Assembly (NCBI RefSeq): GCF_000805455.1
Contig: NZ_JSUS01000032.1
Location: 124,001 to 188,000 of the forward strand
Origin: Acinetobacter sp. A47
GTDB taxonomy: Bacteria > Pseudomonadota > Gammaproteobacteria > Pseudomonadales > Moraxellaceae
Reading direction: 5' to 3'
Length of the DNA stretch: 64,000 nucleotides
In this document: piece after piece, positions 29,446-63,679 of the stretch
Numbering within the stretch: position 1 is the first letter of the stretch
Layout: each line of letters opens with the position of its first letter
Notes under the pieces: generated by a model
The model's input: the letters and a program-made list of their open reading frames with translations, nothing else
What the model was told of the DNA's origin: nothing
Databases searched by the model: none
Made by a program: the position numbers and the translations under genes

Positions 29446-29994
29446 ATGAGATCGCCCAAGTATTCGCAAAAAGCCTTTACCTTGATCGAGGTCATGGTGG
29501 TGATTGTTATTATGGCGGTTATGGCATCTCTTGTGGTCTTGAATATTGGTGGTGTCGACCAGCGGCGAGCCATGCAAGCCCGAGAGATGTTTATTCTCGA
29601 TCTGAAAAAAATTAATAAAGAAGCGACAGACCAGGCTAAGGTTTTTGCCTTGAATACCCAGAACGCAACCGATATCGCGCCTTTTAGTTATAACCTGTAT
29701 GAATATCATGATCAGAGTCTTGAGCTGATACAGCAGGCAGACCGGACTTGGCAACCATATAAGGAATTTAAGACCCGCCAGTTGCCAAAGAATGTGTCTT
29801 TCAGTATTCAAAGTCTGGATACCACAAGCTATGGCAAAGCTAAAAATGAAGACCTGCTTGGCGGCAAGGCACCACAACTTATCTGGTTTGGGAATGGTGA
29901 AGCAAAACCGGTTCGCATCCAGTTTTATTATGAGCAGCAGCCGATCGGGCATGAGTTAGAGCTAGATCACTTGGGTAAGGTCAATGAAAATTAA
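29446..29994 (+). CDS. gspH: Type II secretion minor pseudopilin GspH
   Basis: A 182-residue pseudopilin. The short leader MRSPKYSQKA is followed by the prepilin motif FTLIEVMVVIVIMAVMASLVVLNIGG with glutamate at +5; the processed residue before F is alanine (QKA|FTLIEV) rather than the usual glycine. It seeds or sits near the tip of the type II pseudopilus. The stop overlaps the gspI start (ATGAAAATTAA), and gspJ and gspK follow. The alternative name FimT is less likely because gspI/J/K follow. Confidence 0.85.
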   Translation: MRSPKYSQKAFTLIEVMVVIVIMAVMASLVVLNIGGVDQRRAMQAREMFILDLKKINKEATDQAKVFALNTQNATDIAPFSYNLYEYHDQSLELIQQADRTWQPYKEFKTRQLPKNVSFSIQSLDTTSYGKAKNEDLLGGKAPQLIWFGNGEAKPVRIQFYYEQQPIGHELELDHLGKVNEN

Positions 29995-30697
29995 TGCTTT
30001 AACAGGTCTTACAGAAAATGCCTGTTGTCTTGTGAAAGAACAAAAGACTCGCATCTCAAGCACAGCTTCTTATCTTTCAACAGAACAGAAATCTCATACC
30101 TCAAGCATAGCTTTCGGTCTTGCAGCAGGGCCGAGCGTTGCTCGATTTAATCGTGCCCACATCGAGCATAGCTCTCCGTCTTGCGCTCGTGTGAAACGTT
30201 GTTTCATTCATCCTGTAACTCGAAGCCCAGGTTCTCATCTTTTAACAGAACAGAAATCTCACACCTCAAGCATAGCTTTCGGTCTTGCAGCAGGGCCGAG
30301 CGTTGCTCGGCAGAGACCTGCTTCAGGATTTACCTTGCTGGAGGTAATGGCGGCACTGGCGATCTTTGCGGTTGCAGCAATTGCGTTAACCAAAGTGGCC
30401 ATGCAATATACACAATCGACCTCAAATGCCATTTTAAGAACCAAGGCTCAATTTGTGGCAATGAATGAAGTGGCCATGATGGAAATAAATCAGGAATGGC
30501 TCGATGGCACACAATCCAAACAGGTGACTTCACAGGGAGAAACATGGCAAATAGATAAAAAAGCACAATCGACAATCAGTCCTAAAATACAACGTATCGA
30601 ATTACAGGTCAGTCTATTCAATAAAGAGCAAGCTAAGGTAGAGGCGGGCGTTACTCAACTTGTATTTTTCAACTATCCTGCCAAAGCCAGAACATAA
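29984..30697 (+). CDS. gspI: Type II secretion minor pseudopilin GspI with an abnormal repeat-derived N-terminal extension
   Basis: The conserved part begins at G115 (codon at 30326): GFTLLEVMAALAIFAVAAIALTKVAMQYT, a normal pseudopilin start with E at +5, and ends like GspI. Ahead of it the frame stays open to ATG 29984, which overlaps the gspH stop as expected for this operon, but the 115-residue leader is far longer than the usual 6-25 residues. It is made of repetitive sequence: the peptide TEQKSHTSSIAFGLAAG occurs twice. The only other in-frame start I found (GTG at 30190-30192) still leaves a 46-residue leader. Either a repeat element inserted in frame here, or the protein is not processed normally. 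Confidence 0.75.
   Translation: MKINALTGLTENACCLVKEQKTRISSTASYLSTEQKSHTSSIAFGLAAGPSVARFNRAHIEHSSPSCARVKRCFIHPVTRSPGSHLLTEQKSHTSSIAFGLAAGPSVARQRPASGFTLLEVMAALAIFAVAAIALTKVAMQYTQSTSNAILRTKAQFVAMNEVAMMEINQEWLDGTQSKQVTSQGETWQIDKKAQSTISPKIQRIELQVSLFNKEQAKVEAGVTQLVFFNYPAKART
30047..30311 (+). repeat. Array of mini-palindromes with two 77-bp direct repeats inside gspI
   Basis: Two copies of a 77-bp unit lie at 30068-30144 and 30233-30309, with three mismatches. Superimposed is a series of short hairpins each with a 3-nt loop: AAGC-ACA-GCTT (30058), AAGC-ATA-GCTT (30103), CGAGC-GTT-GCTCG (30132), GAGC-ATA-GCTC (30164), TGAAAC-GTT-GTTTCA (30192), GAAGC-CCA-GGTTC (30222, one mismatch), AAGC-ATA-GCTT (30268) and GCCGAGC-GTT-GCTCGGC (30295). 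Centre spacings are about 45, 30, 31, 30, 29, 45 and 30 bases. No part resembles a transposase or a CRISPR repeat. Probably an interspersed, structure-forming repeat family. Confidence 0.8.
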
Positions 30698-31311
30698 TGA
30701 AATATAGACGCGCATTTACTTTAGTCGAGCTGCTGGTTGCCATTGCCATTTTTGCGGTACTTTCCATGCTCGGCTGGAAGGTTTTTGATCATTTATTAAA
30801 AGTAAAAGATCGAAATGCGCAACATGAAGAGCATTTATTTGCCTTGCAGGATGCTTATCAGCAGGTGCTTCGTGACAGTTTGCAGATTATTCCGCTTACT
30901 GCCAATGATGGGCGACAGTTGCAGGCTGCCATGGTATTGAATGACCGGGGACTGACGTTCAGCAAGGCAGGTGTCTCAGACCCTTTAAAACAGGGATTAT
31001 CACCGTATGAGCGTATTGAATATCGCTATGATGCTGTGCAAAAGAAAGTTTACCGCCTGAAGTATTCAAATTTAAATATTCCCAATCGTGTACAGCCCGT
31101 TTCAAGCACTTTGCTGGAAAATGTCGACCAGTTTAAGGTGATGGTCATGAACCCGCAAGAACTGAGCCAATGGCCTGAAAATAGTGATCCGGGTAATATT
31201 GCTGAACTGAAAAAATTACCGCTTGGGATAAAAATACAATTGACGGTTGCCGGTACGGACTATGAGTGGATTTATAGTTTGCTAAACAATAAACCGGATG
31301 CAGGCAGTTAG
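30697..31311 (+). CDS. gspJ: Type II secretion minor pseudopilin GspJ
   Basis: A 204-residue pseudopilin with a five-residue leader and the prepilin motif A-FTLVELLVAIAIFAVLSMLGW (E at +5). The body matches GspJ (SPYERIEYRYD, DQFKVMVMN). It forms the tip complex with GspI and GspK. The gspI stop and gspJ start share one base (TAATG), so gspI translation matters for gspJ. Confidence 0.9.
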   Translation: MKYRRAFTLVELLVAIAIFAVLSMLGWKVFDHLLKVKDRNAQHEEHLFALQDAYQQVLRDSLQIIPLTANDGRQLQAAMVLNDRGLTFSKAGVSDPLKQGLSPYERIEYRYDAVQKKVYRLKYSNLNIPNRVQPVSSTLLENVDQFKVMVMNPQELSQWPENSDPGNIAELKKLPLGIKIQLTVAGTDYEWIYSLLNNKPDAGS

Positions 31312-31318
31312 TCATAAC

Positions 31319-32278
31319 ATGAAAAGACATTCATCACAGCAAGGTATTGCGCTTTTAACTATTCTGGTTATGGTGGCACTGGCCACGGTTCTGGCGGCAA
31401 CGATTGCCAAGCGGCAAACCAATACAACCGAGAATACAGGCTATTTGATGCGTCAGAACCAGTCTTTGCTGTATGCAAAAAGTGCAGAAGCATTTTTCTC
31501 CGAGTTACTGATTCAGGATAGTGAAAGTGCCAATAACATTGATCACTTGCAGGAAAACTGGGCCAAACCGATGCCTGCATTTCCTGTAGAAGATGGATAT
31601 GTTTCTGGGCGCCTGCTTGATGAGTCCGGAAAGTTTAATCTGAACAATCTGGTCAAACCGGATGGAACTCAGGTTGATGAGTCTGCGCGACGCTGGTTTG
31701 AAAAACTGTTGCAGCGTGTAGGTTTACCGGCAGAGCTGAGCCAGGCGGTGATTGACTGGCAAGATGTTGATGATGAAACGACAGGCGCAATGGGAGCTGA
31801 AAGTAATTATTATCAAGGGCTGGATCCTGCATATCTCACACCAAATACCAAATTTCATAGTGTAGAGGAGTTGAAGCTGGTAAGAGGTTTTGAGGGTAAA
31901 AATTATGATTTGATCAGACCTTATGTTACAGCCTTGCCAGAGCAGACCAAGATCAATATCAATACTGCGCCTGCTTTGCTTCTGGCGAGTATTGATCCAA
32001 AACTTGATGTCAAGGCAGTAGAGCAGGAACTAAAAAAGAAACAGGTCAACCTGAGCTATTTCAATAATGCTGAAGAACTGTGGCAGTTAAATGCATTTTC
32101 GGGAATTGATGGTCAGAACAAAACAGATGCTGCCGCTTTAGTCGATGTTAGATCGAACTATTTTACAGCCCAGATTGAAGTCGGATTAAGCGAACGGAAA
32201 CGCCAGTTTGTTTCTTCTTTCGTACGTAAGGATAAACAGGTTACTGTTTATTCAAGAAGTCTTGCTTCATTCCAGTAA
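31319..32278 (+). CDS. gspK: Type II secretion minor pseudopilin GspK
   Basis: About 319 residues. The leader MKRHSSQQG is followed by IALLTILVMVALATVLAATIAKRQT, the GspK type in which the +5 glutamate is absent, which is normal for this subunit that caps the tip. A large globular domain with SAM-like helices follows (FNLNNLVKPDG, KININTAPALLLASI). ATG at 31319 gives the canonical leader; an ATG at 31298 would overlap gspJ. Last gene of the H-I-J-K operon. Confidence 0.9.
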   Translation: MKRHSSQQGIALLTILVMVALATVLAATIAKRQTNTTENTGYLMRQNQSLLYAKSAEAFFSELLIQDSESANNIDHLQENWAKPMPAFPVEDGYVSGRLLDESGKFNLNNLVKPDGTQVDESARRWFEKLLQRVGLPAELSQAVIDWQDVDDETTGAMGAESNYYQGLDPAYLTPNTKFHSVEELKLVRGFEGKNYDLIRPYVTALPEQTKININTAPALLLASIDPKLDVKAVEQELKKKQVNLSYFNNAEELWQLNAFSGIDGQNKTDAAALVDVRSNYFTAQIEVGLSERKRQFVSSFVRKDKQVTVYSRSLASFQ

Positions 32279-55790: not shown

Positions 55791-56190
55791 AAAACCTTGT
55801 GTTTTTGTCTGAATTGTTTTTTAAGTTGTACTGCTATTTTCTGAGCATTTCAATAGCAAAAGAGGGTATTTTGAAAATAAATTTTTGAATGTATTGATTT
55901 ATATAACTTTAAAGTATTTTTTATATTGATTTATAGTATTTTTTAGTTAAATGTTGCCCGGTATTTTTACGTTTTGAAATATTTAAATGTTATCTATAAA
56001 GCAGCTTATAACACTATTTAGTGCAATATCCGGTATCACGGAATGAGTATAAGTCAGATTATTCCACATTGTTATAGCCAGTAAAAAAGAAAGATTTGTC
56101 GTAAACAAAAAATGAACGTTGGATAAAAGAACATTTTTTGTATAGCTAAAACAATGTTTGGGTAAAACATTATCTTAACGACAAATCATT
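55791..56190. other. 400-bp AT-rich intergenic region with a flanked inverted repeat
   Basis: No ORF seen. Its last 95 bases are bordered by a ten-base inverted repeat, GATTTGTCGT at 56093-56102 and its complement at 56178-56187, with an internal AACATT...AATGTT pair. This abuts the brnQ stop codon, so it may fold into the 3' end of that mRNA; a miniature mobile element is an alternative. Confidence 0.35.
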
Positions 56191-63276: not shown

Positions 63277-63471
63277 GTTATTGAACTAATATTCTTAAAC
63301 TTATGCTTTATTATAAGAAATCCAGATGTCGTTTATGTTTAACAATTGACTAAAATCGTAAGCAAATATTGTAGCCTTTTAAAAAAGTAGATTGCCCGGT
63401 AAAAAGCTTCCCCAAGGCGGGGCAGGGTTTTCTAAAGCATGCTTCTCACCTATAGATAATTTGGTATGACT

Positions 63472-63666
63472 TGAGCCAGACAAAGCGTTTGAAGCTTTGG
63501 CGCAGCGCAAGAATGGAATAGGAATACGTGAGATCTATTGTTTATAACAGGTATTAAAAAACGCCACCTGAGCCAGACAAAGCGTTTGAAGCTTTGGCGC
63601 AGCGCAAGAATGGAATAGGAATACGTGAGATCTATTGGTTTATAGCAGGTATTAAAAAACGCCACC
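63472..63666. repeat. 97/98-bp tandem direct repeat
   Basis: Unit 1 (63472-63568) and unit 2 (63569-63666) are nearly identical: one inserted G and one A/G change near the TCTATTG boundary. Each unit contains the mini-palindrome CAAAGC...GCTTTG and ends in AAAAAACGCCACC. In unit 2 this end pairs with the next bases to make a terminator for the Sel1-like gene, so the duplication includes half of a terminator. Confidence 0.9.
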
Positions 63667-63679
63667 TAAGTGACGTTTC
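63655..63679 (-). terminator. Terminator of the Sel1-like gene
   Basis: On the minus strand AAACGTCAC-TTAG-GTGGCGTTTTTT: a stem with one G-U pair followed by six T residues. Its T-side arm lies inside the tandem repeat. Confidence 0.75.

Follow-up and report, generated by a model that had tools for sequence, protein, structure and literature searches.

In-frame arrays of a dispersed hairpin repeat in cleavable prepilin leaders of Acinetobacter

The minor pseudopilin gene gspI in the window, the 64,000-nucleotide stretch of Acinetobacter sp. A47 DNA analyzed here, begins with a leader that is probably an array of a hairpin repeat dispersed across the genus, for which cleavable prepilin leaders would be a safe harbor, and type II secretion (T2SS) is expected to work. 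Units of the repeat lie in frame in several types of prepilin leader; the remaining copies are intergenic or at the 3′ ends of genes. The last bases of a prepilin array are TCA, immediately followed by the glycine codon of the cleavage site, and the array does not disrupt the frame that begins at the start codon overlapping gspH. No codon-position signal is seen in the encoded peptide, and the stems of the hairpins covary.

The proposed mechanism starts with a repeat that enters the gene just ahead of the invariant Gly(-1) codon, after which the array would grow, shrink, and shuffle. PilD would cut after the glycine and remove the whole array, so the mature pseudopilin would stay unchanged, and in-frame, stop-free growth would be tolerated, unlike elsewhere in a protein. 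The unit may be pre-adapted to this position because the frame that places TCA before GGN is open through the unit. Spread would involve insertion abutting a GG, the dinucleotide with which every glycine codon begins, together with gain, loss, and copying of units between leaders.

The long gspI leader in the window and in the genus

The gspI product is identified as a T2SS minor pseudopilin by its family matches, its cleavage motif, and its place in gspH-I-J-K (Table 1). The TIGR01707 match (cut-off 44.35 bits, NCBIfam) begins at residue 115, the PF02501 match exceeds a cut-off of 25 bits, and PF07963 scores 31 bits at the prepilin motif G↓FTLLE. A preliminary description of this DNA had reported a frame open from the ATG that overlaps gspH to the prepilin motif, followed by an intact GspI, and both statements are borne out by the ORF and by the family match from residue 115 on. 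The 115-residue leader given there includes the glycine; the leader is long, and 114 residues precede Gly(-1). The in-frame ATG, GTG, and TTG codons ahead of Gly(-1) are ATG 29984, GTG 30032, and GTG 30191, with no others. The GTG placed at 30190 and taken for the sole alternative start is located at 30191, and the GTG at 30032 had been overlooked. A start much nearer to 30326, named there as an outcome that would take the array out of the protein, was not found among these codons: the nearest leaves 45 residues and part of the array. The two-copy repeat described as 77 bp is real and near enough to that size, with copies of 87 nt whose longest common exact run is 47 nt. GspH scores below the TIGR01708 cut-off despite the intact gspH-K order.

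Table 1. Features of the gspI region, in window coordinates.
Feature	Position	Strand	Evidence or remark
gspH, ordinary short leader	29446..29994	+	TIGR01708 72 bits (below the 80-bit cut-off); N_methyl match
gspI, T2SS minor pseudopilin with long leader	29984..30697	+	237-aa ORF; TIGR01707 48.2 bits and PF02501 35.5 bits, both above cut-off
gspI leader, 114 codons before Gly(-1)	29984..30325	+	11-nt overlap between ATG start and gspH stop, also seen in species with short leaders
Repeat copy 1, 87 nt	30058..30144	+	82/87 identical to copy 2
Repeat copy 2, 87 nt	30223..30309	+	Start-to-start distance from copy 1, 165 nt (55 codons)
Hairpin-repeat unit 1	30098..30161	+	Covariance model R1, 51.5 bits, whole-genome search (G000:C12:154098-154161)
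Hairpin-repeat unit 2, other open frame (EHSSPSCA)	30159..30215	+	R1, 52.0 bits; unit outside the model-building set
Hairpin-repeat unit 3, ending in TCA plus GG of the Gly(-1) codon	30263..30327	+	R1, 69.0 bits; one of 28 model-building units
Hairpin 2 of unit 3, GCCGAGC-GTT-GCTCGGC	30295..30311	+	Sequence
Gly(-1) codon GGA, prepilin cleavage site GFTLLE	30326..30328	+	N_methyl PF07963 match
gspJ, ordinary short leader in the window	30697..31311	+	TIGR01711 69.5 bits
gspK	31298..32278	+	NF037980 305.2 bits

The gspI survey covered 119 Acinetobacter genomes. The gene was matched in 106, unmatched in 13, and read in 105. The excluded genome, G108, has gspI in two match pieces with TAG and TGA (G108:C26:16652-17013), which is likely a decayed pseudopilin in one species. 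Leaders measured 6 codons or fewer in 50 genes (4–6 residues), 10–25 codons in 9, and 29–119 codons in 46, and the 114-codon leader of the window is the second longest of the 105. Among named genomes, A. nosocomialis has a 4-codon leader and A. colistiniresistens an 83-codon leader. The gspI start and the gspH stop share an overlap of 11 or 14 nt in 98/105 genes, including 44 of the 46 with long leaders; the start codon is thus the same in short and long genes, and the added length lies after the first few codons and before Gly(-1). TCA directly precedes the glycine in 43/46 long (absent in three), 5/9 mid-length, and 0/50 short leaders.

The expectation in the preliminary description that relatives would show the site without the array agrees with the 50 short genes, whereas an array peculiar to this strain is not supported, given the 46 long ones and the same units in other prepilin genes. 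The opposite outcome raised there, an ancient 115-residue extension conserved in all relatives, was not found, and the leaders are hypervariable. As judged from the survey, the long gspI leader is not an accident of one strain, and neither is it an ancient extension that has become fixed. Long or mid-length versus short leaders require 15 changes on a tree of the mature part of gspI compared to 35 with shuffled labels, which suggests that the array was repeatedly gained or lost, on a weak tree with 39/100 inner branches open and only 3–4 changes forced by well-supported (starred) branches. A comparison of the gspI genes of genomes G139 and G077 shows one in-frame gap of 60 nt and four substitutions in the leader, together with three substitutions in the mature part, a pattern that points to recent turnover of the array.

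An internal start for GspI, with the array acting as 5′ untranslated RNA only, is very unlikely. Such a start is possible for some genes, since gspG genes of the ACB complex have an ATG 5 residues before the glycine. In contrast, the nearest candidate codon in the window gspI would still include part of the array, and internal initiation was set aside for this protein on that ground. Furthermore, 44 of the 46 long leaders are unbroken to the gspH-overlapping start, a result that does not arise by construction. The other two leader frames, of 2566 codons each, contain 88 and 145 stops compared to none in 2608 in-frame codons, although the in-frame zero is partly by construction because each leader was traced back as far as the first stop. 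In this count the 46 long leaders represent 42 distinct ones.

The window leader was used as a query against its own genome, and the second site found was the leader of gspG, the major pseudopilin. This genome holds 16 prepilin-type genes above the N_methyl cut-off, with a repeat leader seen in gspI and gspG only. Across Acinetobacter genomes, leaders of at least 20 codons occur in 9/102 gspH and 30/100 gspJ genes. TCA precedes the glycine in 9/9 long and 0/93 short gspH leaders, and in 22/30 long and 7/70 short gspJ leaders, leaving 8/30 long gspJ leaders without it. For gspG, 10 of 20 genes, whose regions were picked rather than drawn at random, have leaders of 51–70 residues measured from the first ATG. 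In 11 genomes taken for the A. baumannii group (L322–L332), the gspG leader measured in this way has 61–66 residues in eight, 51 in one, and 16 in two, and seven of the 11 have an ATG 5 residues ahead of the glycine that is a possible internal start. The A. nosocomialis reference genome has a 67-codon gspJ leader that holds the repeat and a gspG leader that is also repeat-built. Further repeat-leader genes are presumably pilW, fimT/U, and pilE, names that we read off the N-termini. A plasmid-borne copy was rejected because a comparison of the window gspI leader DNA with plasmids gave zero matches.

The hairpin unit, its dispersal, and its apparently fixed end

The unit is about 60 nt long and is arranged in arrays. 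It consists of hairpin 1 (arms such as GAAGC/GCTTC with a 3-nt loop), the linker TCGTCTTGC, hairpin 2, which often has an outer stem, and a CTCA end. A half-unit pattern gave 102 matches in 47/119 Acinetobacter genomes and its reversed control gave none, which indicates that the repeat is more than chance. Prepilin leaders hold 55 of the matches (gspI 23, gspG 13, pilW-like 7, gspJ 6, fimT/U-like 4, and gspH 2), and 47 are elsewhere. Each of the 55 leader copies has the sense orientation and is read in phase 1 or 2, never in the TAG-containing phase; 30–31 are in phase 1 and 23 in phase 2, plus two phase-1 copies added by eye, FimT-type leader copies (locus L138) that the motif script had missed. 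The preliminary description was right that a repeat element has been inserted at the start of gspI without disrupting the frame. A prepilin motif was present within 600 nt downstream of 0/47 non-leader copies, so no out-of-frame leader copy was seen.

The non-leader copies recur at a limited set of intergenic spots, including what we take to be the argS 3′ end and the rplA-rplJ spacer from the encoded protein ends, and 15/47 overlap with ORFs that are at least 80 codons long but unconfirmed. A repeat confined to prepilins, as the first two matches in the own genome had suggested, was ruled out by these intergenic copies. The second pair of hairpin 1 is A-T in 62, G-C in 36, A-C in 4, and G-T in none of the 102 matches. 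The mean stem of hairpin 2 is 6.2 nt in leaders and 6.1 nt in other copies, compared to 3.6 and 3.8 nt after shuffling. A known RNA family was rejected because Rfam gave no match at the gathering threshold in the eight loci searched, which included the window gspI leader. The best Rfam match at 29900–30450 is a plant miRNA model with 20.5 bits against a gathering threshold of 70.

Covariance model R1 was built from 28 of 64 terminal leader units. R1 matched two units within the window leader (30159–30215 and 30263–30327), and the search of the whole 3.9-Mb genome added unit 1. At E ≤ 0.01, R1 gave 9–32 matches per genome, among the matches listed, in 20 genomes that were picked rather than drawn. 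The own genome has 32 matches, of which 30 were read: the leaders of gspI and gspG account for four, and the other 26 are between genes, in the last 3–5 codons of genes, or over doubtful ORFs. Four consecutive matches 57 nt apart were observed outside prepilin genes (G000:C49:49906-50140; L344, L353, L363, and L368). A tandem pair of 97-nt units with 97% matches is located at window positions 63472–63667; these copies match R1 weakly on the minus strand (63567–63622, E 0.02; 63470–63525, E 0.52) and are perhaps a diverged relative. An AT-rich tandem repeat of 2.5 copies of a 22-nt unit is present at 55898–55952.

One end of the unit appears to be fixed. A TCAGG end is present in 19/26 non-leader copies of the own genome, with the qualification that R1 itself ends in this way. 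Two of the copies abut tRNA-Val and tRNA-Lys, where the GG forms the first two bases of the tRNA, and in prepilin leaders the GG that follows TCA begins the Gly(-1) codon. At the argS 3′ end, CCTGA, the complement of TCAGG, comes from the last codons of the gene itself in 12/12 loci with a unit compared to 5/18 without one (Fisher p 8.7e-5, for loci from related genomes that are not independent). The simplest rule that we infer is that the CTCA end of the element is joined to a GG. At argS loci L292–L317, the outer stem of hairpin 2 pairs, by eye, with the last codons of the gene and varies between species along with them (for example, GGCGATG/CATCGCC and GACGATG/CATCGTC), as though the host flank had been the template for the palindrome. 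A RAYT/Y1 transposase as the driver was set aside because PF01797 was matched in just 4/20 unit-rich genomes; the only match in the own genome is a 26.3-bit fragment with an internal TGA (G000:C12:610007-610144).

Selection on the leaders and the expected state of secretion

Substitutions were counted in 10 close pairs of gspI genes, hand-chosen from 48, with genome G136 occurring in two. Leader substitutions at codon positions 1, 2, and 3 were 66/636, 65/634, and 64/637 (0.104, 0.103, and 0.100), compared to 86/1223, 32/1223, and 357/1224 (0.070, 0.026, and 0.292) in the mature part. The even distribution across leader codon positions suggests that the encoded peptide is free. A function of the long leader peptide itself, such as targeting, PilD interaction, or chaperoning, is accordingly highly improbable and was set aside on the codon-position result. 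The 42 distinct leaders are positively charged (mean net charge +8.7, minimum +3) and rich in Ser, Arg, and Cys, as a functional peptide might be, but two different unit frames are in use and 50/105 gspI genes have leaders of 4–6 residues. The pN/pS ratio is 0.68, not 1, in leaders and 0.13 in the mature part (48 non-independent pairs). Aligned leader DNA diverges by 0.10 per site versus 0.29 at mature third positions, about three times less. This slow divergence is unlike a plain neutral passenger and may be due to hairpin constraint, to re-copying between units, or to the choice of alignable leaders.

Stem covariation was measured in 64 of 83 distinct terminal stretches, those with a TCAGG end and TCTTG inside, a set that favors recognizable units. 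Pairing reaches 96.3% and 94.6% in the two inner stems, which have 63 and 26 double-change cells, respectively, and 83.3% in the outer stem, which has 23; 0/500 shuffles reach the observed value for any of the three. Stems slid out of register are at most 55% paired. The observed number of pairs with a double change was reached by 18, 4, and 28 of 500 shuffles. Further pair types do not exceed shuffles for the inner stems (500/500 and 385/500 reach the observed value) and are reached by 21/500 for the outer stem. The nearest terminal unit belonged only to another gene type for 23 of the 64 units and to the same type for 27, with 14 tied (shuffled labels expect 38.6), which indicates that exchange between genes happened, yet units also cluster by gene.

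The covariation inside coding leaders raises the alternative that the arrays are functional RNA, elements of the translated mRNA that tune pseudopilin and minor-pilin translation or stability, with array length setting the amounts of tip subunits. We consider this unlikely, although several results favor it besides the covarying stems: leader DNA evolves more slowly than mature third positions, the sense direction is invariant among the leader copies, and the window gspI leader folds better than shuffled sequences (z −2.25, 1/100 shuffles as good) whereas the mature part does not (z +0.76). Weighing against it, further pair types do not rise above shuffles, 50/105 species have no array in gspI, and orthologous genes use units of differing stem sequence and number. 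Intergenic copies also have the same covarying stems, with near-identical mean lengths, so the structure may be a property of the element and not of pilin mRNAs. A combined reading is likewise considered unlikely: the element would land on the GG of Gly(-1), so that the cleavage site would serve as its landing mark, and be both a harbored repeat and an RNA control region, with selected stems, a free peptide, and a unit number that tunes pseudopilin and minor-pilin amounts.

The preferred reading, a repeat in a safe harbor, predicts a working secretion system. Damage to type II secretion by the insert in the window's strain is extremely improbable. A leader of this length far exceeds the usual few residues, but mature GspI, gspH, gspJ, and gspK have open frames and family matches (gspH below its cut-off), and the leader has no stop. 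Long-leader species also keep the pseudopilin under purifying selection, as the low pN/pS of the mature part indicates, which argues against an inactive system because such a system would not keep it. The own genome has one PilD-type gene, which looks intact, and T2SS in this strain is predicted to be probably intact.

A study of A. nosocomialis M2 reports that T2SS works and that one PilD serves both type IV pili and T2SS (PMC4713064). GspG-FLAG is given there as 18,549 Da at full length and 14,360 Da after processing, which needs PilD, and the printed mass difference is 4,189 Da (PMC4713064). This difference corresponds to a leader of about 40 residues. The mass of mature GspG computed from the A. 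nosocomialis reference is 14,360 Da, and no start of the reference gspG gives a 4,189-Da leader (7,151, 6,551, 6,420, 5,293, 5,162, or 631 Da), so the M2 leader or its annotated start differs from the reference. The 4.2-kDa M2 leader in the published blot is thus no more than a possible carrier of the repeat. The preliminary description had listed tolerance of the insert, altered processing, and inactivated type II secretion as options; a probable alteration or inactivation of secretion is not supported. The open gspH-K genes and the PilD gene speak against this, as does the species A. nosocomialis, with a functional T2SS in that report (PMC4713064) and repeat-built gspJ and gspG leaders in its reference genome.

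Implications and comparison with known systems

Prepilin leaders would be a place where mobile repeats enter proteins of an essential machine, many times in one genus, at no cost to the mature product because the peptidase trims the repeats off. The start sites of Acinetobacter pseudopilins and pilins may be mis-annotated, and the arrays would explain very long predicted leaders. The gspI genes form a natural length series of 4 to 119 codons that could be used to ask how long a leader PilD and membrane targeting accept, and whether hairpins in a translated leader set pseudopilin levels. The genus-wide phenomenon is real and apparently undescribed in the open-licence literature searched.

IS200/IS605-type elements and their non-autonomous relatives have subterminal hairpins and one end set precisely by a short fixed sequence. 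The Acinetobacter unit resembles them in its hairpins and perhaps in a precise end, CTCA↓GG (complement CC↓TGAG), but the PF01797 search of 20 genomes tied no transposase of this family to the unit. It resembles REP, BIME, and REPIN sequences in being hairpin-forming, intergenic, arranged in arrays, and often at gene 3′ ends. It differs from REP/BIME elements with a RAYT in the scarcity of PF01797 matches among unit-rich genomes and in its coding insertion into one protein class. Prepilin peptidase removes leaders of usually 5–10 residues from type IV prepilins and non-repetitive leaders of about 25–30 residues from type IVb prepilins. The Acinetobacter leaders also exceed the usual 5–10 residues, but they reach 119 codons, are built of repeats, and vary between close species. 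The PilD-processed T2SS pseudopilins of A. nosocomialis belong to the same protein families, and the available part of that study contains no remark on leader length or repeats (PMC4713064).

Rickettsia palindromic elements (RPE) are short, palindromic, and dispersed, and occur in frame inside genes as well as between them; they are about 150 bp long and are found in metabolic genes that are unrelated, where they code for a conserved peptide (PMC10969869). The Acinetobacter unit is also a dispersed palindromic repeat found in frame in genes, with 55 copies in leaders and 47 elsewhere. In contrast to RPE, its units of about 60 nt form arrays, and all 55 coding copies found are in prepilin leaders that end at the cleavage glycine rather than in many unrelated genes. 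The peptide of the unit is not conserved, as the use of two frames and the equal codon positions indicate. The unit behaves like an in-frame palindromic element but is not a member of the RPE family. On the sequence evidence, this is an RPE-like invasion of coding sequence, confined to the stretch of the protein that would be cleaved away and reaching as far as the cleavage point.
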